A stretch of 64,000 bases of DNA from Parvivirga hydrogeniphila (GTDB taxonomy: Bacteria; Actinomycetota; Coriobacteriia; Anaerosomatales; Anaerosomataceae). Position numbers and translations under genes: made by a program. The DNA is taken from positions 926,662-990,661 of the forward strand of contig NZ_JAMCCO010000001.1 in NCBI RefSeq assembly GCF_023371205.1, read 5' to 3'. The notes below the pieces were generated by a model. It was given only the letters and a program-made list of their open reading frames with translations. It was not told where the DNA came from and ran no database searches. Positions 1 through 42,700 of this stretch are shown one piece after another. Positions within the stretch are counted from its first letter, which is position 1; each line of letters starts with the position of its first letter.

Positions 1-1
1 C

Positions 2-814
2 GAGCGGCACATGGAGGACGTGGCAGCCGGGCGTATCAGACGCATCGCGCGCGCCGAGAACGTTTCGGAAGAAGACGTGCTCGACGCGATCGAGGTCTTG
101 CGAAGCCTCAATCCGCGTCCTGCCGCGGCGTTCGGATGGACGGCCGACGTGTCGTACGTGGCGCCGGACGTCATCGTGCGGGAGTTCGACGGCGAGTGGG
201 TGGTGTTCCCCGACTTCGAGGTGCTGCCCATGCTCCGCGTGTCGCCGCGCTACCGGGCCATGCTCGTCAGCGGTGACGGCGTGGACGAAGAGGCTCGGCG
301 GTACCTGAGGGAGCACGTGAAGAAGGCCGAGACGTTCATCCGGAACCTCGACAGGCGCAGGGACACGGTGGTCCGCATCGCGAAAGTCATCGTTGAGACG
401 CAGCGGGAGTTCTTCGAGACGGGCAGAGCTCCGCTCAAGCCGCTTCGGCTCGAAGACGTCGCCATCGAGCTTGGGGTCCACCTGAGCACTGTGAGCCGCG
501 GTGTCACCGGCAAGTACATGGCCACTCCGTACGGCATGTTCGAACTGAAGCACTTCTTTTCGGGCGGCTATCGGACGCGGACCGGTTTCGATGTCGCTTC
601 GACGAGCGTGAAGCAGCGGATCCGTGAGCTCGTGCGAGCGGAGAACGCCGACGATCCGCTCTCGGACCAGCGCATCGCCGACCTCCTTGCTGACGAGGGG
701 GTTCCGGTGGCTCGACGGACGATCGCGAAGTATCGCGAGGAGCTCGGGATCCCGCCCTCGTGGATGCGCAAGCGGCGAGCGGACGGCGCTCGGACGCGGG
801 GTGCTCTGCGATGA
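2..814 (+). CDS. rpoN: RNA polymerase sigma-54 factor RpoN (5' end outside window)
   Basis: C-terminal 270 residues of sigma-54, the alternative sigma factor that binds -24/-12 promoters and needs an AAA+ activator. The frame is open to the left edge, so the ATG at 11 is internal and the gene is cut by the window. Visible are the core-binding region (NPRP at about residue 35), the helix-turn-helix around LSTVSRGVTGKYM, and the diagnostic RpoN box ARRTIAKYRE near the C-terminus, which reads the -24 element. Its stop overlaps the ATG of the following sensor kinase, and an NtrC-type activator and a matching promoter lie just downstream, so this is a compact sigma-54 control module. Confidence 0.95.
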   Translation, partial: ERHMEDVAAGRIRRIARAENVSEEDVLDAIEVLRSLNPRPAAAFGWTADVSYVAPDVIVREFDGEWVVFPDFEVLPMLRVSPRYRAMLVSGDGVDEEARRYLREHVKKAETFIRNLDRRRDTVVRIAKVIVETQREFFETGRAPLKPLRLEDVAIELGVHLSTVSRGVTGKYMATPYGMFELKHFFSGGYRTRTGFDVASTSVKQRIRELVRAENADDPLSDQRIADLLADEGVPVARRTIAKYREELGIPPSWMRKRRADGARTRGALR

Positions 815-2301
815 GCGCTCAAGGAACGGCGCGGTCAGGCTCGGCGTACCGTGATGCCGTATCGATCGCCGCGCTGCTCGCCACCATCACGGGGCTCCAC
901 CTGGTCACAGACCCGTCCGGGCAGTGGGCGTCGATGCACCTGTTGTACCGCCGCCTCTTCTACGTCCCGATCCTCTATGCCGGGTTCGTGTTCGGTCGGC
1001 GCGGAGGTGCGGTCACCGGACTGGCCGCCGCCGTCCTGTACGGCTTCCATGCACAGCTCTCGATGGGAGGCCTTCTCGGGCCCGGCCTGGACAACCTGTA
1101 CGAGACCGTCAGCTTCGTGGTGCTCGGAAGCCTGTTCGGCTGGATGCGGGACCTCGCAGACATGCGGACCGCGGACCTTCGCATCGTGAGCTCGCAGCTC
1201 CAGCGCGCGTACCACAAGCTCGAAGAGCGTGCGCTCCAGCTGTCGAGCGTCCAGGAGTACACGCAAGCCATCCTGCGCTCCGTCACGGCCGGCGTCATGA
1301 CGCTCGGCCCTGATGGTTCGATCGTCACGGCGAACCCGGCTGCGGAACGGCTCCTCGGTCAGCGGGAGCCCGACCTGGTCCCGCGGCGCATCCAGGCAGT
1401 CCTCGCGGACGACGGCGGGTTGGATGCGGACGTGTCGAAGGTGCTCGCAGGGAGAGCGCCACGCATCGTCAGAGAGACGAAGATCGTCACCAGGAACGGC
1501 AAGGCCGTGCACGTGCAGGTGTCGATATCGCGCATGCGGGACGCAGAGGGCAGAATCCTCGGTGCCGTCGTCGCCCTTGAGGACATGAGCGAGGTCAAGG
1601 CGCTGACCGACCAGCTCATCCGCTCCGACCGGCTCGCAGCGATGGGCGAGCTGACGGCCGGCGTCGCCCACGAGGTGCGCAATCCGCTCGGAATCATCCG
1701 TGCGTCGGTGCAGCTGATCGAGGAGAGCAACGGCGATCCGGAGCGCATCGCTGAGGCGACGTCCGTGGTAAAGCAGGAGATCGACCGGCTGGATCGCGTC
1801 ATCAAAGCGCTGCTGGACTTCGGCAGGCCGAGCGCGCCAGCGTTCAGGGCCGTGAAGGTCGCCGACGTGATCGACGACGTCGTCCTTTTCACGAGGAGGT
1901 TCGCACGAGAGGCGCACGTCTCGATCTCGTACGATATCCCGCCGGACATCCCGTACGTGCGCGCTGACCCCGACCAGATGAAGCAGGTGTTCGTCAACCT
2001 CATCTCGAACGCTGTGCAGGCGATGCAGGGGCGCGGTGGCAGCATCTCTCTAAGCGCACGCGCAGACGGGGGCTTCGTCGCTATCCGTGTCGAAGACGAC
2101 GGACCGGGCATCCCTGAGGCCGAGCTGCCGAAGATCTTCGACCCGTTCTACTCCACTAAAGATGATGGGACAGGGCTCGGGTTGACGATGGTCCACCGCA
2201 TCGTGGACGACCACGACGGGTACATCGAAGTCGCCTCTCGCGTGGGCGAGGGGACGTCGTTCACCGTCTACTTCCCGGCAGCCACAGGATCGGAGGACTG
2301 A
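811..2301 (+). CDS. Membrane-bound PAS sensor histidine kinase (NtrB/ZraS-like)
   Basis: Sensor kinase of 496 residues, predicted to phosphorylate the NtrC-type regulator encoded 1 nt downstream. The N-terminus (about residues 12-105) is hydrophobic with several membrane segments. A coiled-coil stretch and a PAS domain (about 165-275) follow, then the HisKA H-box VAHEVRNPLGI near residue 285, and an HATPase domain with N-box NLISNAVQAM, G1 box DDGPGIP and G2 box GTGLGL. The ATG at 811 overlaps the rpoN stop and is preferred over an in-frame ATG at 760 that lies inside rpoN. The signal it senses cannot be read from the sequence. Confidence 0.9.
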   Translation: MSAQGTARSGSAYRDAVSIAALLATITGLHLVTDPSGQWASMHLLYRRLFYVPILYAGFVFGRRGGAVTGLAAAVLYGFHAQLSMGGLLGPGLDNLYETVSFVVLGSLFGWMRDLADMRTADLRIVSSQLQRAYHKLEERALQLSSVQEYTQAILRSVTAGVMTLGPDGSIVTANPAAERLLGQREPDLVPRRIQAVLADDGGLDADVSKVLAGRAPRIVRETKIVTRNGKAVHVQVSISRMRDAEGRILGAVVALEDMSEVKALTDQLIRSDRLAAMGELTAGVAHEVRNPLGIIRASVQLIEESNGDPERIAEATSVVKQEIDRLDRVIKALLDFGRPSAPAFRAVKVADVIDDVVLFTRRFAREAHVSISYDIPPDIPYVRADPDQMKQVFVNLISNAVQAMQGRGGSISLSARADGGFVAIRVEDDGPGIPEAELPKIFDPFYSTKDDGTGLGLTMVHRIVDDHDGYIEVASRVGEGTSFTVYFPAATGSED

Positions 2302-2302
2302 G

Positions 2303-3649
2303 GTGGGCAAACGCGTTCTCATCGTCGACGACGAAAAGAACATGCGCTGGGTGCTTGCAGAAGCGCTCAGGGCCCAAGGGTACGAGATCTCAGAGGCGGC
2401 TGACGGCAAGCAAGCCATGACGGAGGTCTCGGAGAACGCGCCGGACCTGATGGTGCTCGATCACAAGATGCCTGCCCCGGACGGCATGGAGGTGCTTCGT
2501 CGCGTCCGCGGGAAGGGCTTCACCTTCCCGATCATCATGCTCACAGCGCACGGGAACGTGCAGACCGCCGTCGAGGCGATGAAGGCAGGCGCGACAGAGT
2601 ACCTCTCGAAGCCGTTCGACCTCGAAGAGCTCAAGCTTGTCATCGACAAGGCGCTGCGGACCGGAGAGCTTGCTGCCGAGGTCGAGCGTCTGCGCGCCGA
2701 AGTCGGCAAAGAGTACGACATCGAGGGCATCGTGGCTGGCTCGCCGGCGATGCTGTCGGTTCTGGAGACGGTCCGGAAAGTCGCTCCGACGAGCGCGACG
2801 GTGATGATCTACGGCGAGTCAGGGACCGGCAAGGAGCTGATCGCGCGAGCCATCCACCAGCTCTCAGATCGGGCCCAGCGTCCGTTCGTGTCGGTAAGCG
2901 CCGGGGCGCTCCCGGAGACGTTGCTCGAGAGCGAACTGTTCGGGTACGAGAAAGGCGCGTTCACCGGCGCATTGCAGGCCAAGCCCGGCCGGTTCGAGCT
3001 CGCAAACGGCGGGACGATCTTCCTGGACGAGGTCGGTGACATCTCGCCGGCCGTCCAGGTCAAACTCTTGCGCGTTCTCCAGGAGCGGGTCTTCGAACGG
3101 CTCGGCGGAACGCGCAGCATCGAGGTCGACGTGCGCGTCGTGGCGGCGACGAACCGCGACCTCCAGCAGCTGATCGCTGATGGTTCGTTCCGGGAGGACC
3201 TCTACTATCGCCTGAACGTGGTCCCGATCGTTCTTCCGCCGCTGCGCGACCGCCCGGAAGACATCCCTCGCCTCATCGCGCACTTCCTGGAGAAGATTCG
3301 TGCTGGAGACCGGAAGATAACACCGGACGCGATGCGAGCGCTCGTCGAGTACAAGTGGCCCGGCAACGTTCGCGAGCTCGAGAACACCGTCGAACGGATG
3401 GTGATCCTCTCACGAAGCGATTCGATCGGTGTCGAGGACCTGCCGGCAGAGATCAGGTCGGGTGTGGCGCTGCAAGGCGGCGAGCGTCGCTTCACGCTTC
3501 CTGACGAGGGCGTGAACCTCGAAGAAGTCGAGATGGATCTCATCACGCAGGCCCTGGAGCGGACCGGTGGCAACGTTCCGCGTGCCGCGAAGCTCCTGAG
3601 CCTGACAGCCAAGACACTGGAGGCCAGAATGCAGCGGTTCGGCCTGTAG
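2303..3649 (+). CDS. Sigma-54-dependent response regulator (NtrC family)
   Basis: 448-residue activator with the classic three-domain order. The receiver (about 1-120) has phosphoacceptor Asp in MVLDHKMP and conserved Lys in LSKPF. The AAA+ sigma-54 interaction domain (about 140-370) has Walker A GESGTGKE near residue 171 and the sigma-54 contact loop GAFTGA near 218. The C-terminus has a Fis-type helix-turn-helix (GGNVPRAAKLLSLTAKTLEA). It starts with GTG one base after the kinase stop and is surely co-transcribed with it. A sigma-54 promoter begins 26 nt after its stop, which makes the downstream zinc-ribbon/HMA genes its most likely local target. Confidence 0.95.
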   Translation: MGKRVLIVDDEKNMRWVLAEALRAQGYEISEAADGKQAMTEVSENAPDLMVLDHKMPAPDGMEVLRRVRGKGFTFPIIMLTAHGNVQTAVEAMKAGATEYLSKPFDLEELKLVIDKALRTGELAAEVERLRAEVGKEYDIEGIVAGSPAMLSVLETVRKVAPTSATVMIYGESGTGKELIARAIHQLSDRAQRPFVSVSAGALPETLLESELFGYEKGAFTGALQAKPGRFELANGGTIFLDEVGDISPAVQVKLLRVLQERVFERLGGTRSIEVDVRVVAATNRDLQQLIADGSFREDLYYRLNVVPIVLPPLRDRPEDIPRLIAHFLEKIRAGDRKITPDAMRALVEYKWPGNVRELENTVERMVILSRSDSIGVEDLPAEIRSGVALQGGERRFTLPDEGVNLEEVEMDLITQALERTGGNVPRAAKLLSLTAKTLEARMQRFGL

Positions 3650-3674: not shown

Positions 3675-3690
3675 TGGCACGCCGGTTGCA
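3675..3690 (+). promoter_or_regulatory. Sigma-54 (-24/-12) promoter
   Basis: TGGCACGCCGGTTGCA matches the sigma-54 consensus TGGCACG-N4-TTGCW at every defined position. It lies between the NtrC-type regulator and the zinc-ribbon gene. With the GC of TTGCA at -13/-12, transcription would start near 3701, leaving a very short leader. The coupling to rpoN and an NtrC-family gene just upstream supports it strongly. Confidence 0.9.
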
Positions 3691-3716
3691 TGGGGCATGG
3701 GCCGTAGGAGATGCGC

Positions 3717-4079
3717 GTGGATCGGAGCGGCGTGCTGAGGGCTCTAAGCATCGCGATCGCCGCAGTCATCGCCGTGTCGCTGCTCGTCGTCGCTGCTGGC
3801 CAACCGTGGTTCCAGGAGCGATGCGGTGCTGCTGGCCTGTCTTCGGGCGGTGCGGCCGTGGCTGTCGCTGTGGTAGCGTTGGTGGCGGGAACTGCTGCCG
3901 CCACGCGGGGCGGCCTCAGGAGCGGCGAGAGGCGGCGACCAGGTCTCAAGGAGTGTCCGTCCTGCGGCCAGGCGGTATTGCGCGATTGGCGCATGTGCCC
4001 CTACTGCGGCGCCTCGATGGGCGTCGAAGAATGCGGAAGCCCGAACGACGAAGAGGAGAGAGCGTGGCTGAGACGGTGA
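3717..4079 (+). CDS. Small zinc-ribbon membrane protein
   Basis: About 120 residues with two hydrophobic segments (about 5-27 and 44-62) followed by a basic stretch and a C-terminal zinc ribbon of two Cys pairs (CPSCG and CPYCG), presumably cytoplasmic. No specific family is recognised. An ATG at 3711 directly abuts the Shine-Dalgarno TAGGAG (3705-3710), so the in-frame GTG at 3717, six bases from it, is the better start. It is the first gene after the sigma-54 promoter and overlaps the following metal-binding protein by 16 nt. A role in metal sensing or handling is inference from this context. Confidence 0.6.
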   Translation: MDRSGVLRALSIAIAAVIAVSLLVVAAGQPWFQERCGAAGLSSGGAAVAVAVVALVAGTAAATRGGLRSGERRRPGLKECPSCGQAVLRDWRMCPYCGASMGVEECGSPNDEEERAWLRR

Positions 4080-4288
4080 GCGTCGAGATCCCGACGCGCG
4101 GGATGCACTGCCGTTCGTGCGAGTCCCTGATCGAGCTGACGCTGGGAGACCTTGATGGAGTGATCTCTGCGAAAGCCGACCGAAGCGCCGAGGCGACCTC
4201 CGTGACGTACGACCCAGCGCGGGTCGACGTGCAGGCCATCGTGGAGGCGATCCGGTCTGCGGGCTACGAGGCCTCGGCTCCCGAGTGA
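4064..4288 (+). CDS. Heavy-metal-associated (HMA) domain protein
   Basis: 74-residue single HMA/CopZ-like domain with metal-binding motif GMHCRSC near residue 12 and the usual beta-alpha-beta pattern ending in AIRSAGYEA. Such proteins bind Cu(I) or similar soft metals as chaperones, or act as small sensors. The GTG at 4064 has a strong Shine-Dalgarno (GAGGAGAG) just upstream. It overlaps the end of the zinc-ribbon gene, indicating translational coupling, and is followed by a promoter/operator and ccdA. Confidence 0.85.
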   Translation: MAETVSVEIPTRGMHCRSCESLIELTLGDLDGVISAKADRSAEATSVTYDPARVDVQAIVEAIRSAGYEASAPE

Positions 4289-4302
4289 TACCTACACAAG
4301 CC

Positions 4303-4321
4303 ATACCCGCCGGGGTATAAT
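4303..4321 (+). promoter_or_regulatory. CsoR/CstR-like operator overlapping the ccdA promoter
   Basis: ATACCCGCCGGGGTAT (4303-4318) is a perfect 6-4-6 inverted repeat. Its right arm runs into a consensus -10 box TATAAT (4316-4321), with a weak -35 TACACA (4293-4298) 17 bp upstream. The GC-rich core flanked by ATA/TAT resembles operators of the CsoR/RcnR/CstR repressor family. The same architecture occurs at 39658-39673. The regulator itself is not in the window. Confidence 0.6.
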
Positions 4322-4363: not shown

Positions 4364-5107
4364 ATGGGTCAACAGGTCGGTCTGCTCGCCGCGTTCGCGG
4401 GGGGCGCACTGTCGTTCATCGCGCCGTGCGTGTTGCCCCTGATCCCAGGGTACCTGTCGTTCATCACCGGGCTTTCTGCCTCCGATCTCAAGGCAGGCGA
4501 GCGGCGCGCCTCCGAGGTGATCGTTCCGAGCCTGATGTTCGTCCTCGGCTTCAGCGCGGTCTTCATTCTGCTGGGGCTTGCGGCCGGTGCGGCATCGCAG
4601 ACGCTCGGCCCTGCGATCGGCTCCTACAAGCGGGTCCTTGCGGTGATCGCCGGCGTCGTGGTCGCCGTTTTCGGGGTGCTCATGATGGACGTGATCCGCG
4701 TGCCGTGGCTGTACCGGGAGTTCCGCGCCGACCTCGCGAAGAGCCGGCGTTTCGGGAAGGCCGCAGCGCTCGTCATGGGCGCAGCGTTCGGGCTCGGGTG
4801 GACCCCGTGCGTCGGACCGATCCTCGCCGTCATCCTCGGCATGGCAGCGCAGACCGGAGACGCCGGGAGGGCGGCCGTTCTCCTCGCAGCGTACTCGGCA
4901 GGGCTCGGCGTGCCGTTCGTTCTCACTGCCGCGCTGTTCGGTCGTGCTGAACGCGTGCTCAGAGCGCTCGGCAAGCACTCGCTCGCGATCTCGCGCATCT
5001 CGGGAAGCGTGCTCGTCGTGATGGGCGTCCTCATCGCGACCGGCCAGCTCGGACGCATCTCGGGCGTTCTCGTGCGGGTCTTTCCTTTCTTGGGCACCAT
5101 CGGATAG
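4364..5107 (+). CDS. ccdA: Cytochrome c biogenesis / thiol transport protein CcdA
   Basis: 247-residue membrane protein of the DsbD/CcdA family with six hydrophobic segments. It passes electrons from cytoplasmic thioredoxin across the membrane for cytochrome c maturation or extracytoplasmic thiol reduction. The two conserved redox cysteines are visible in IAPCVLPLIPGY (TM1) and GWTPCVGPI (TM4). The start ATG at 4364 has ACGGAGG upstream. It follows the HMA gene by 75 nt, a gap that holds its own promoter and a palindromic operator. No ResA/ResB/CcmF partner is visible in the window. Confidence 0.92.
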   Translation: MGQQVGLLAAFAGGALSFIAPCVLPLIPGYLSFITGLSASDLKAGERRASEVIVPSLMFVLGFSAVFILLGLAAGAASQTLGPAIGSYKRVLAVIAGVVVAVFGVLMMDVIRVPWLYREFRADLAKSRRFGKAAALVMGAAFGLGWTPCVGPILAVILGMAAQTGDAGRAAVLLAAYSAGLGVPFVLTAALFGRAERVLRALGKHSLAISRISGSVLVVMGVLIATGQLGRISGVLVRVFPFLGTIG

Positions 5108-5193: not shown

Positions 5194-8100
5194 GTGAGAC
5201 CTGCGATTCTGAGCCGAGACAGCCTTGCTGCGAGGTATACGCGCATCGCCGCAGCGCTTGCGCTTGCTACGACGTTGCTGCTTGGTGCGACGGCCGCTCT
5301 CGGCGTGTACCGGGTGATGAAATCGGAGCAGGCGGCGCGCGTTGGTGCGTATCGGGACATCCTGCGCCTGGAAGCGGCGTCACATCTGCAGACGGCGTAC
5401 CGGCTCGCGCGGGCGCTGGCTGATCGAAGCGAGGTAGCCGCTGGCGCCGCTCCGCAGGCGAAGCTCGCGCTTGGCGTAGCGCTCCTCGACAACGGGACGT
5501 ATCTCTCCCATCTGGCTCTCGCTGAGACTTCAGGGACCGTGATAGCGGCGTATCCAGCGACCGGTACGCCGGCGCCGTCTGCCATCGCATCGTGGTCGGA
5601 GCGCCTCGCCGCAGCAGGGAGCAGGAGCGAGTGGCTCGTCGACGAGTCCGGGTTGAGGGTCGTGTGCTGGTCGGGATCTTCCGGAAGCGCCGGTCGCGTG
5701 CTCATCGCGCAGGTCGCAACGGATCGTATACAGAGCACCTTGGAGCAGATCGCGGCAACGGCGCGCTCGCCCGTGGCATTCATCCGAGACGGAAACGGTC
5801 GCATCATCTTCTGGGCGGGCTCCCTCGCGGGTCTCGAAGATGCCGAATTCAAGATCGAGAAGGTCGACGATTCGAACGATGCGCGAGTGACAGCCACATC
5901 TGCGTCACGCGGCCGCATGGAGGGGTACCTGGGCCGTGTCGCAGGCGTGCCCGGCCTGGCGTGGGACGTCGTGGTGTTGGAGCCTTCTGGCGCCGCGATG
6001 AGCGAGACGTGGAGCGCCCTGCGGCCGGCCATCATCGTGTACGTGGGGGTCTTGGTCCTCGTCGTCGTGGTCGCTGCGACCGCCTTCTCGTGGCTCGTCA
6101 GGCCACTGCGTGCGCTGGAATCGCGCGCTCGCGCTGCAGCGCAGGGCGCGGTCCTGGACCCCGTCGCTGTCGACCGCGGAGACGAGGTCGGTCGTCTGCT
6201 GGAGTCGTTCAACCTCGTCGCGATGCGGCTGAACCGTCTCCAGGAGTCGGCTCGGGTGCTCGCGCGGACAGAGGAGCCGCGCGAGGTCGCGGAGAACGTT
6301 GCGCGCGCAGTCATACACCTCCTCGGAGCATGTGACGTGGCGGTGCTGCTTGCAGACGCTGAGGGCGATGCATCGAGCTCCATGAGAGTTGCTGCCTATC
6401 GCGGGCATACTGGCCAGGAGGACGGGTCGCTGCTCGAGTTCGAGTCCACGGCGTTGCCGGATATGTCGGATGCTCGTGATGCGAGGGTCATCGAGGGCGG
6501 GCTGGATGCGCTGTTCGGCGGCGAGCGTTCGGCCGAGGCGGATGGGTCTGTGACGCTCGCGGTGCCGTTGCGGGCCTCGGGAGGAGCCGTCGGCGTGCTC
6601 GCCGTCTCGCGGACGCGTGAGCGGCCGTTCTCTGCGGCCGAGATAGAGCTGGTGAGCTCGTTCGCGTCGCAGGCCGCTCTTGCTCTGGAGAAGGCGCGCC
6701 TTTTCGAACGGGAGCGGCGGGCGCGGGTCGAGGCGGAGGCTTTGCAGCAAGCCGCTCAGATGCTCGTAGAGGAGCCCGACCTCGCGTCCGCCCTCGAGAA
6801 GGTGGCGACCTGCCAAGCGGTGTCGCTCGGGATGCGCTGGTCGAGCGCCTGGCTTGACGAGCGTCTGCGGGAGGAAGATGGACAGGAGCAGCGCTGTGAC
6901 TCGATCGCGGACCTCGTCGAGCTCATCGAGCAGCGTTTGTCAGGAGAAGATATCGCAGGGCTCGCTTCCGGCGTGTTCGTCTTGCGTTCGGACGACGGTG
7001 ACGAGCGCATCACCGCGTGGTTGCAACGCCAGCCCCTCGCTACGGCCCTCGTCTCGTATGCTGCGCTCGACGGCCATCTCATGGGGATGGTTGTGACGGG
7101 CACGCCGGACCACTCATTCGTGGTGGATGAGCGATGCATGCGTATCGCGGGGACTATCGGCAAGGAGGCCGCGCTGGCCGTTGAGCGCGTCCGGCTGTTC
7201 AAGGAGGCGAAAGACCGCGCGACAAGCCTCGAGACGGTGTTCCGCGTCTCACAGGTCGTGTCTTCCTCGCTGAAAGTGAACGTCGTCTTGAGCCGGGTCC
7301 TCGACGTCGTGCAGAAGATCTTCAATGCCGACACCGTGATGCTCATGAGGCGGAACGAGGACCGGCGTGTGCTGGAAGTCTCGATGGCGCGCGGCGTGCT
7401 CGACCAAGTGATGCTCGACCACACGTGCCGGGCCGATGAGGACCTGCCTGGTGCCGTGCTGCAGACCCAGCAGGTCATGCTCGTGTCACGCCTCGAGGAC
7501 ATCGGCACGGCCTTCTCGCGCGCGGCGCTGAAGAGGGGGCTGCATTCGGCGTTGCTGGTGCCGCTTGTGGCTCGCGGGAAGGCCATCGGGGTGCTGGTGA
7601 CGCTTGGCGCGCAGCCCGGCAAGTTCGGTAAGGCCGACGCGGATCTGCTGAGCACGTTCGCCTCCCACGCCGCGCTTGCCATCGACACCGCCGAGCTGTT
7701 CGCCCGCGAGCACGAGGTATCGCACGTGCTGCAGTCGAGCATCCTCCCGGATCGGCTTCCGCGCTACGACGGCCTCGATCTCGGCGCGGCGTATGTGCCT
7801 GCTGAGGGGATCGCCCGAATCGGCGGTGACTACTACGACGTGTTCGCTGCACCTGACGGGCGCGTGGCGTTCGTCATCGCGGACGTGTGCGGCAAAGGCG
7901 TCGAGGCAGCGACGAAGACATCCATGATCCGGTTCATGGTGCGCGGGATGGTGGCGGCGGGCGCGGGTCCGAAGGAGATCCTTGAGGCGCTGAACGAGAC
8001 GGTTCACGCAAGCGGCGATGCGAACGACATATTCACGATCTGGCTCGGCATGCTGGACCTTCGCACCGGGACGCTCTTGTGGGCGGACGGAGGCCATCCG

Positions 8101-39647: not shown

Positions 39648-39676
39648 TTGACGGCACATACCCAAAGGGGTATGCT
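39648..39676 (+). promoter_or_regulatory. Sigma-70-type promoter with embedded CsoR/CstR-like operator
   Basis: TTGACG (39648-39653), a 17-bp spacer, TATGCT (39671-39676). ATACCCAAAGGGGTAT (39658-39673) fills the spacer and reaches into the -10 box as a perfect 6-4-6 inverted repeat of the same form as that at 4303. A further half-site ATACCC lies near 39681. Binding here would block RNA polymerase. Confidence 0.65.
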
Positions 39677-39744: not shown

Positions 39745-42700
39745 ATGTCAGCGATCCCTGAACAGTTCGAACGGGCGCTCCGGGAGATCTTCGGGCCCCG
39801 CATGAGCACCGACCGTGTGGAGCGCAAGCTCTACTCTGCCGACATCGGGTCGATGCCCAAGCTCGTCAAGCCGCTCATGCCGACCGGCGTGGCCGGCGCC
39901 GTCGTCAGGCCGAAGAGCGAGGAGCAGGTCGTCGCTGTCGTGCGCCTCGCGCGAGAGCACGGCGTGCCGATCGTCCCGCGAGGCATGTCCACCTCAGGAT
40001 ACGGCGGCGTGCTGCCTGTGCCAGGGGCCGTGGTCGTCGACATGTCCGGTATGAGCAGAGTCCTCGAAGTCGATGAGGAAGCGAAGACGGTCCGCATCGA
40101 GGCCGGAATCATCTGGGAGCAGCTGCAAAGAGAGCTTGCGAAGCGCGGGCTCGACCTCGTGATGTACCCCTCGTCGCTCCCGTCCTCGACGGCGGCAGGA
40201 TGGCTTGCGCAAGGCGGCGCGGGCTTCGGTTCGTTCGAGCGTGGCTGGTTCAAGGACAACGTGATCTCGGCCCGCGTGGTGTGGCCCGACGGTTCTGTGA
40301 GCGAGGTGTCCGGCGAGAAGCTGCAGACGCTCGTCGCTGATGCCGAGGGCATCACCGGCATCATCACCGAGCTCACGATCCCGGTGCGCGACCTCGAGCC
40401 GGAGGTGCACCGGTTGATCGCGTTCCCGGACGCGGGGTCGCTCGCTGCGGCGCTCAAGGACATCTCTGTGCAGCGCCTGCCCATCTGGTCGATCACCTTC
40501 ATCAACCCCGAGTCGGTCCGCATGAAGAAGCGGCTGCCGCATCGGCATGGCCACCCCTACGAGATGGCGCACCTCGGATTCGAGCCGGAACTACCCGAGG
40601 CGTACATCGCTGTCATCGCGTACCCGGAGTCCCGGCGCGGCGCCGTCGACGCCGCGTTGGAGGCGATCGCCCGGGCGCACGGCGGCACTGAGCTCGACGC
40701 AGAGACGGCAGAGCACGAGTGGGAGCAGCGGTTCGCTCCGATGCGGCTGAAGCGCATCGGCCCGTCCATCGTCCCGACCGAGGTCGTGGTGCCGCTCGGC
40801 GAGCTGCCACAGGTCCTCTCCGAGATCGACCGCGCCCTGAAGCAGCCGTTCGTGCTCGAAGGCATGGTGTCGAAGGGCGACAAGGTCGTCCTGCTCGGCT
40901 TCATCCCGCACGACGAGCGGTCGCTCGCGTTCAACCTCGCCTTCGCGCTCGCGCTCGTCGTCATCAAGATCGCGAAGAAGCACGGCGGCGGTGCGTACTC
41001 CACCGGCGTGTTCTTCCGCCAGGAAGCCAGAAGCGTGCTCGGCGAACAGAAGCTTCAAGCGCTCGCTTCGTTCAAGCGCGAGAACGACCCCAAGGGCGTG
41101 CTGAACCCCAAGAAGATCCTGGGCACGGGCGCGGTGAACGCGCTGATGAAGTTCGCGCTTGCCTTCGAGCCCATCGTCCGACCGATCGCGAACGCCGCTC
41201 GCCCGCCGAAGGGCGACCCTGTCGGTACGAAGGAGCGGCGGGGCGTTCCGGCAGACGTCGCGTACTACGCGTATTCCTGTGCGCAGTGCGGCTACTGCGT
41301 CCCGACGTGCGAGGAGTACTCGGTGCGAGGGTGGATGAGCCACTCGCCGCGCGGCAAGTACCTTTACCTGCGCGAAGTCATCGAGGGCCGTGAGAAGTTC
41401 GACCAGGCGATGGTCGACAAGTTCCTCGTGTGCACGACCTGCGAGGTCTGCAACACGCGCTGCCAGCTCCAGCTGCCCGTGGAGCACTCGTGGATGGAGA
41501 TGCGAGGCAAGCTCATCCACGACGAAGGCCGCATGACCTTCCCGCCGTTCGAGATGATGGCGGCCGCGCTGCGCGGCCAGTTGAACATCTGGGCCGGCAA
41601 GCGCGAGAAGCGCGCAGACTGGGTGCCTGAGCACATCAGGCCAAAGATCAAGGACAAGGCGGACGTCCTCTACTTCGCTGGATGCACGGCAAGCTACGTG
41701 AACACCGACGTCGCCAAGGCGACCGTCGAGCTCCTCGACCGCTCGGGCGTGGAGTTCACCTACATGGGGACGGACGAAGCGTGCTGCGGCATCCCGATGA
41801 AGGTCGCTGGCAAGTGGGACGTGTTCGAGGAGATCTACGAGCACAACGTCGCCGAGGCCCGGAAGCGGGGGGCCAAGACGATCGTCACCTCGTGTCCTGC
41901 GTGCGGTCTCGTGTGGAAGGAGTTCTACGCGAACCTCGCGGCGGAACGCGGGGAGACCTATGAGTTCGAGGTCAAGCACTACTCCGAGCTCGTGGCAGAG
42001 GCCATCAAAGAGGGGACGATCGAGTTCGATCGCCCCATCGAGAAGCGGCTGACGTTCCACGATTCGTGCCACATGGGCCGTGCGCAAGGCGTGTACGACC
42101 CGCCGCGCGAGATGCTCAAGGCCATCCCGGGCGTCGAGTTCGTGGAGATGGAGCACAACCGCGAGGAAGGGCTGTGCTGCGGCTCGGTGCTCACGCTCAT
42201 CGGCGAGACGCCGGTCGCGCCCGAGCTCGGCAAGATGCGCCTCGACGAGGCCATCGACGTCGGAGCCGACGCGGTGGTCGCCCTGTGCCCGTGCTGCCAG
42301 GTCCAGCTCCGCGACTCGTCGGAGAAGAAGGAGCTCGGCATGCCGGTGGTCGACCTCGCCCACGTGGCGGCCGAAGCGCTCGGCATCGAGATCCCTGACC
42401 CGACGGCGTACTCCATGGAGATGTGGGGCTACTTCGAGAAGTTCATCTACCTCATGAAGCCCGAGGTCGTGGCAGACATCATGGTCGCGATCCTTCCCGA
42501 CATGATGAAGGCGATGCCTGCAGGCATGGTCCCGATGATGAAGGTCATGCGTTCGGTTCCCGGCGGGCTCGGCCTCATGGGCGCGATGATGCCGAAGATG
42601 ATGCCTGCGATGGTCCCATCGATGATGCCGAAGGTCATGCCTGCGCTGCTTGACGAGGTCTCGCGTCGCGTCGGCCCGCTCCCACAGGACATGAACGACC

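Follow-up and report, generated by a model that had tools for sequence, protein, structure and literature searches.

A conserved -24/-12 element behind the activator gene

Surveys of 2011 and 2025 describe the Actinomycetota as a phylum without a sigma-54 system (PMC3162934) and as effectively without functional RpoN (PMC12316311), and the more recent one proposes that high GC blurs sigma-54 promoters into the background (PMC12316311). A locus of Parvivirga hydrogeniphila (Anaerosomatales) raises the question whether an exact sigma-54 consensus string next to rpoN is a working promoter in such a genome, and what it would control. All evidence is comparative. In the window, the whole analysed stretch of 64,000 nt, TGGCACGCCGGTTGCA at 3675-3690 on the plus strand is the only exact match to TGGCACG-N4-TTGCW, with the -24 GG and -12 GC elements at the spacing of that consensus. 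It is separated by 25 nt from the end of an NtrC-type gene at 3649. The earlier note had placed it beside this gene, correctly, and also near the end of rpoN, which was wrong: rpoN ends at 814, and the genes for the kinase and the activator intervene. The features are listed in Table 1.

Table 1. Features of the rpoN locus and of two unlinked sites; positions refer to the window unless a contig or locus is named
Feature	Position	Strand	Basis or remark
rpoN (sigma-54), 3′ part	1-814	+	full gene L025:15049-16476, begins about 614 bases before the window
Histidine kinase	811-2301	+	Pfam: membrane domain of about 120 aa, PAS, HisKA, HATPase
NtrC-type response regulator	2303-3649	+	Pfam: receiver, AAA+ with GAFTGA, Fis-type HTH
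Sigma-54 -24/-12 promoter element	3675-3690	+	exact consensus; position kept in 16/17 relatives
Predicted transcription start	3701	+	12 nt after the C of the -12 GC; inferred from -12 geometry
Small membrane protein, C-terminal zinc ribbon	3717-4079	+	DZR / Zn_ribbon_3
HMA-domain protein, CopZ-like	4064-4288	+	PF00403, 1.1e-13; best NCBIfam match CopZ, under cut-off
Sigma-70-like ccdA promoter, TACACA-17-TATAAT	4293-4321	+	consensus scan, 10 of 12
Palindrome ATACCCGCCGGGGTAT	4303-4318		exact; overlaps the ccdA promoter
CcdA/DsbD-type transmembrane thiol reductant transporter	4364-5107	+	PF02683, 2.4e-17
Site of the DsbD_2-cupredoxin operon, this genome	C1:48227-48242	-	-24/-12 pattern
sRNA, unannotated, convergent to pstB	G000:C1:617932-618031 (L001/L146)	-	order-wide conservation

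A genome scan for the consensus, as proposed by the earlier note, returned four exact matches in 1.84 Mb, none inside predicted genes, and further targets were found, while the count by itself is uninformative. When 20-kb pieces of this genome were shuffled, exact matches numbered 0.00 to 0.01 per piece. At up to two mismatches the window holds 12 matches against 9.6 expected, which is no excess, and across 35 genomes of the order 43 exact matches compare with about 36 for a reversed-pattern control. Because the genome is GC-rich and the exact total lies barely above this control, match numbers carry no weight, and genome-wide counts were dropped as promoter evidence.

The case for a promoter is made by its fixed and conserved position instead. 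Among the 17 relatives of the order Anaerosomatales with readable sequence at this place, 16 carry a -24/-12 site with at most two mismatches within 120 nt after the activator stop codon; on the opposite strand of the same 120 nt none of the 17 does, the best match having four mismatches. The sole exception (L041) has neither the site nor the zinc-ribbon gene, and its HMA gene directly follows the activator gene. Judged by this conservation, the element at 3675-3690 is a real, evolutionarily conserved sigma-54 promoter.

One sigma factor, one kinase and one activator in an operon

The full-length RpoN comprises the Sigma54_AID, CBD and DBD domains (PF00309, PF04963, PF04552), scores above the TIGR02395 cut-off and contains the RpoN box ARRTIAKYRE. 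The kinase has a small membrane domain and no large periplasmic sensor; 19 sequences share this N-terminal domain, in which His30 and His43 are conserved. The response regulator has the complete domain set of an NtrC-type bacterial enhancer-binding protein (bEBP), and GAFTGA as well as Walker A are kept in all 18 activator orthologues. Only one strong match to PF00158 was found in the genome (4.1e-73); the next ones, at 9e-9 or weaker, were taken as generic AAA+ proteins. The genome therefore has a single full RpoN and a single true sigma-54 activator, encoded in one operon with the histidine kinase. Across the order most genomes have one true activator and some have two.

The rpoN gene is itself preceded by a -24/-12 site in 33 of 38 loci at up to three mismatches (control 2/38) and in 14 of 38 at up to two (control 0). 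These sites resemble TGGTAYR-N3-TTTGCT and lie 24-59 nt upstream in most of the 38 loci; the one of this genome, TGGTATACTATTTGCT, is found 27 nt before the start codon.

The downstream operon and a putative second promoter for ccdA

The GTG start of the zinc-ribbon gene at 3717 was picked by its spacing to the Shine-Dalgarno sequence AGGAG (3705-3709). In some relatives (L034, L031) a DsbD_2-like gene, recognised by sequence motif, is inserted in the operon.

A palindrome identical to that over the ccdA promoter precedes trxA (L025:11663-11678), and relatives have similar palindromes at the same places. We take it to be a putative operator of the CsoR/CstR type. Genes for a CDF efflux protein and for a repressor of the CsoR family lie a few kb upstream of rpoN. 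Probably ccdA receives two inputs, one from the sigma-54 site and one from its own promoter under the CsoR-family-type operator. Palindromes of the form ATACCC-N4-GGGTAT precede ccdA and trxA and, at window 39658-39673, also a gene at 39745; at up to two mismatches the window contains four, against 0.25 expected.

Further predicted protein targets

A gene for a PHP-domain protein is preceded by a -24/-12 site in 13 of 15 cases (control 0/15), and a DsbD_2-cupredoxin operon in 24 of 28 (control 1/28). The latter site is followed, mostly at 460-580 nt, by a conserved motif near the DsbD_2 start, and in the cases read a small ORF lies in between. For hemA an exact site is present here and in one congener, and elsewhere the occurrence is patchy (11/28, control 1/28); this is partial support, and hemA was not retained as a core target. 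As predicted from these sites, the core regulon is made up of the rpoN operon, the zinc-ribbon/HMA/CcdA operon, the DsbD_2-cupredoxin operon, the PHP gene, the sRNA described below and sometimes hemA.

A conserved sRNA with C-rich loops

One of the four exact sites of the genome (C1:618041-618056, minus strand) faces no protein gene. The 100 nt downstream of it are near-identical in four congeneric genomes and fold into two hairpins with C-rich loops, the 3′ end being an intrinsic terminator with a C7 loop. An alignment of 27 such RNAs has 19 consensus base pairs, of which 11 display compensatory changes. A covariance model built from the transcript alone, with the promoter left out, finds the sRNA at E < 1e-5 in 54 of the order's 56 genomes; among 64 genomes from the rest of the class it has no match below 1e-3. 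The usual place of the sRNA is convergent to pstB, and in other genomes a second copy lies upstream of the gene for a WYL-domain regulator. One locus (L100, genome G011) shows an extra C-loop hairpin after the sRNA, resembling a duplicated terminator hairpin, and genome G029 probably has one too (partial R1 match).

A -24/-12 site with at most two mismatches precedes 89 of 90 sRNA loci and none of 179 control segments. In 88 of the 89 the site ends 8-12 nt before the model start, and GG, CA and TTGC are invariant over 88 sites. Since the training set was chosen largely by the promoter pattern, the 65 loci outside it weigh most; the site is present in 64 of them. The comparison across genomes indicates that the sRNA is the most conserved output of the circuit, and it is previously undescribed.

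The earlier note also proposed a search for upstream activator sites, which yielded no upstream activator motif. No shared dyad that could serve as a bEBP site was found upstream, beyond the signal of a divergent sigma-70 promoter upstream of the sRNA (TTGCCC-N17-TACAAC, other strand). The word GTTGTA, enriched and conserved there and considered as an activator site, was rejected, as it fits the -10 element of this promoter of the divergent gene.

An Rfam scan near the sigma-54 sites gave no known family above threshold. The sRNA might nevertheless be merely a divergent 6C RNA (RF01066) or an ar14-like RNA (RF02344), in which case the novelty would be limited to the promoter. The locus is the only match of the 6C model in the genome at E<=1 (E 0.22), and it follows the 6C plan of two stem-loops with runs of about six C, as seen in both fold and alignment; ar14 also matches weakly (best E 0.0066). 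All scores stay below the gathering thresholds, however: the 6C model reaches 25.8 bits here and 39.0 at best in the order (threshold 47 bits), and ar14 31.6 bits at best (threshold 58.8 bits). That two unrelated C-rich families match is what shared composition predicts, and the distribution of the sRNA ends at the order boundary. We therefore regard membership in one of these families as a tentative, rather doubtful reading and prefer that of a separate sRNA family.

Distribution of rpoN and age of the cassette

In the phylum rpoN is rare: of 297 genomes sampled, 11 gave a match, and one of these scored under the family cut-off. Within the order nearly every genome has the gene; elsewhere in the class it occurs in a few members of a single other family. 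The closest named neighbours of the gene belong to the Coriobacteriia, with EMTCatB1 first (75% identity) and one filed as Anaerosomatales. The same gene order of rpoN, kinase and activator, with a kinase membrane domain of the same kind, occurs in two other actinobacterial families, in three genomes of the first and one of the second (L322, L323, L324, L326). In these four loci the zinc-ribbon/HMA/CcdA operon is absent after the activator gene, and a search for the sRNA in other sigma-54-bearing Actinomycetota gave no convincing match. Because the outside families have the rpoN-kinase-activator cassette without the operon or the sRNA, the cassette looks older than these targets, and its distribution suggests that it is old in the Actinomycetota. 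In another family of the class, one rpoN-bearing genome (L327, G055) has an exact sigma-54 site (6079-6094) between a stand-alone activator gene and apparent electron-transfer flavoprotein genes, which is a different sigma-54 circuit.

The Anaerosomatales are clearly an exception to the absence of RpoN from the Actinomycetota. Neither sigma nor rpoN came up in a term search of the paper describing the order (PMC9686372), and the open-access literature searched contained no paper on sigma-54 in Anaerosomatales, though one may exist elsewhere.

The proposed circuit and its alternatives

Very likely, the element at 3675-3690 is a functional sigma-54 promoter in a small, self-amplifying circuit of rpoN, kinase and activator with few targets including the sRNA. 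The kinase would sense the redox or metal state of the membrane (our best guess as to the signal) and phosphorylate the activator, which would then remodel the RpoN holoenzyme at a few promoters. The rpoN operon would boost its own expression, and the protein targets would equip the membrane for thiol reduction and for copper handling or cytochrome assembly. The C-rich loops of the sRNA might pair with G-rich ribosome-binding regions of mRNAs and in this way tune other functions post-transcriptionally. Both the targets of the sRNA and its way of acting are guesses, since an exact complement of its loop was not found elsewhere in the genomes of the genus besides the locus itself. For the order as a whole we consider it likely, with good confidence, that a closed self-amplifying sigma-54 circuit operates, usually with one activator, and that its most conserved output is an sRNA family with C-rich loops that is new, stays below the Rfam thresholds and commonly has two copies per genome. 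This would contradict the published absence of RpoN.

Two other explanations of the locus were weighed. The string at 3675-3690 could be a chance match or another conserved element, with transcripts that run on from the rpoN operon covering the downstream genes. At high GC such strings turn up fairly often, the exact counts over 35 genomes about equal the reversed control, and the activator and target genes are close together in the same direction. What makes this explanation highly improbable is the element's recurrence at the same place in nearly all relatives, together with the presence of the same element, invariant in its GG, CA and TTGC, in front of a free-standing sRNA and of unlinked genes in almost all genomes. 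The locus could also encode a metal-stress system of the ZraSR type that senses periplasmic zinc or copper and uses the HMA and zinc-ribbon proteins as its metal effectors. Proteins of the HMA, cupredoxin and zinc-ribbon kinds are indeed among the targets, and the CsoR-family repressor and CDF efflux genes are near; these upstream metal genes adjoin CsoR-type operators, though, and not sigma-54 sites. The kinase has no ZraS-like periplasmic domain, and the most constant target is the sRNA. By NCBIfam scores, kinase and regulator come closest to AtoS/AtoC, under every cut-off, and ZraS (215 bits, cut-off 479) and ZraR (416 bits, cut-off 760) score lower still. We consider a ZraSR-type function unlikely.

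The likeness to ZraSR drawn by the earlier note is thus not upheld, whereas the metal/thiol theme that it saw in the targets is borne out by the HMA, CcdA, DsbD_2 and cupredoxin proteins. Its compact circuit of rpoN, kinase, activator and target agrees with the single RpoN, the single true bEBP and the conserved site; the regulon is wider than it claimed, as the predicted autoregulation of rpoN and the conserved sRNA had been missed.

Comparison with known systems

With the preferred reading, the sigma-54 system of an order with a GC content of about 67% (window) is both complete and conserved, comprises a handful of promoters and is small enough for the circuit to be dissected in full. Few sRNAs of the phylum have known regulators, and here sigma-54 would be tied to one that is broadly conserved.

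ZraSR of enterobacteria likewise pairs a histidine kinase with a sigma-54 response regulator beside metal-related genes; the system described here differs in its kinase without a ZraS-type sensor domain, in having rpoN in the same operon and in its broader regulon. Borrelia and Chlamydia also have single-activator systems with one sigma-54 and one activator (PMC3162934), whereas in the present actinobacterium, with its 67% GC, one operon behind a conserved sigma-54 site encodes both. 6C RNA resembles the sRNA in its length of about 100 nt, its two hairpins with C-rich loops and its intrinsic terminator, besides the weak model match, while the sRNA stays under the gathering score, is confined to one order and has a sigma-54 promoter in front. 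In Mycobacterium abscessus the 6C RNA B11 acts through its C-rich loops on a G-tract-bearing 5′ UTR (PMC10470900), and we infer by analogy that the sRNA may act on G-rich regions in the same manner.

By analogy of function, the closest known system is LuxO-Qrr of Vibrio, in which sigma-54 and a response regulator of the NtrC family drive trans-acting sRNAs that are conserved and often present in several copies (PMC10162802, PMC2680268). In contrast to LuxO-Qrr, the circuit of the Anaerosomatales belongs to another phylum, has an unrelated sRNA with C-rich loops, shows no quorum-sensing parts, keeps rpoN and the activator gene in one operon and includes metal/thiol operons as co-targets.
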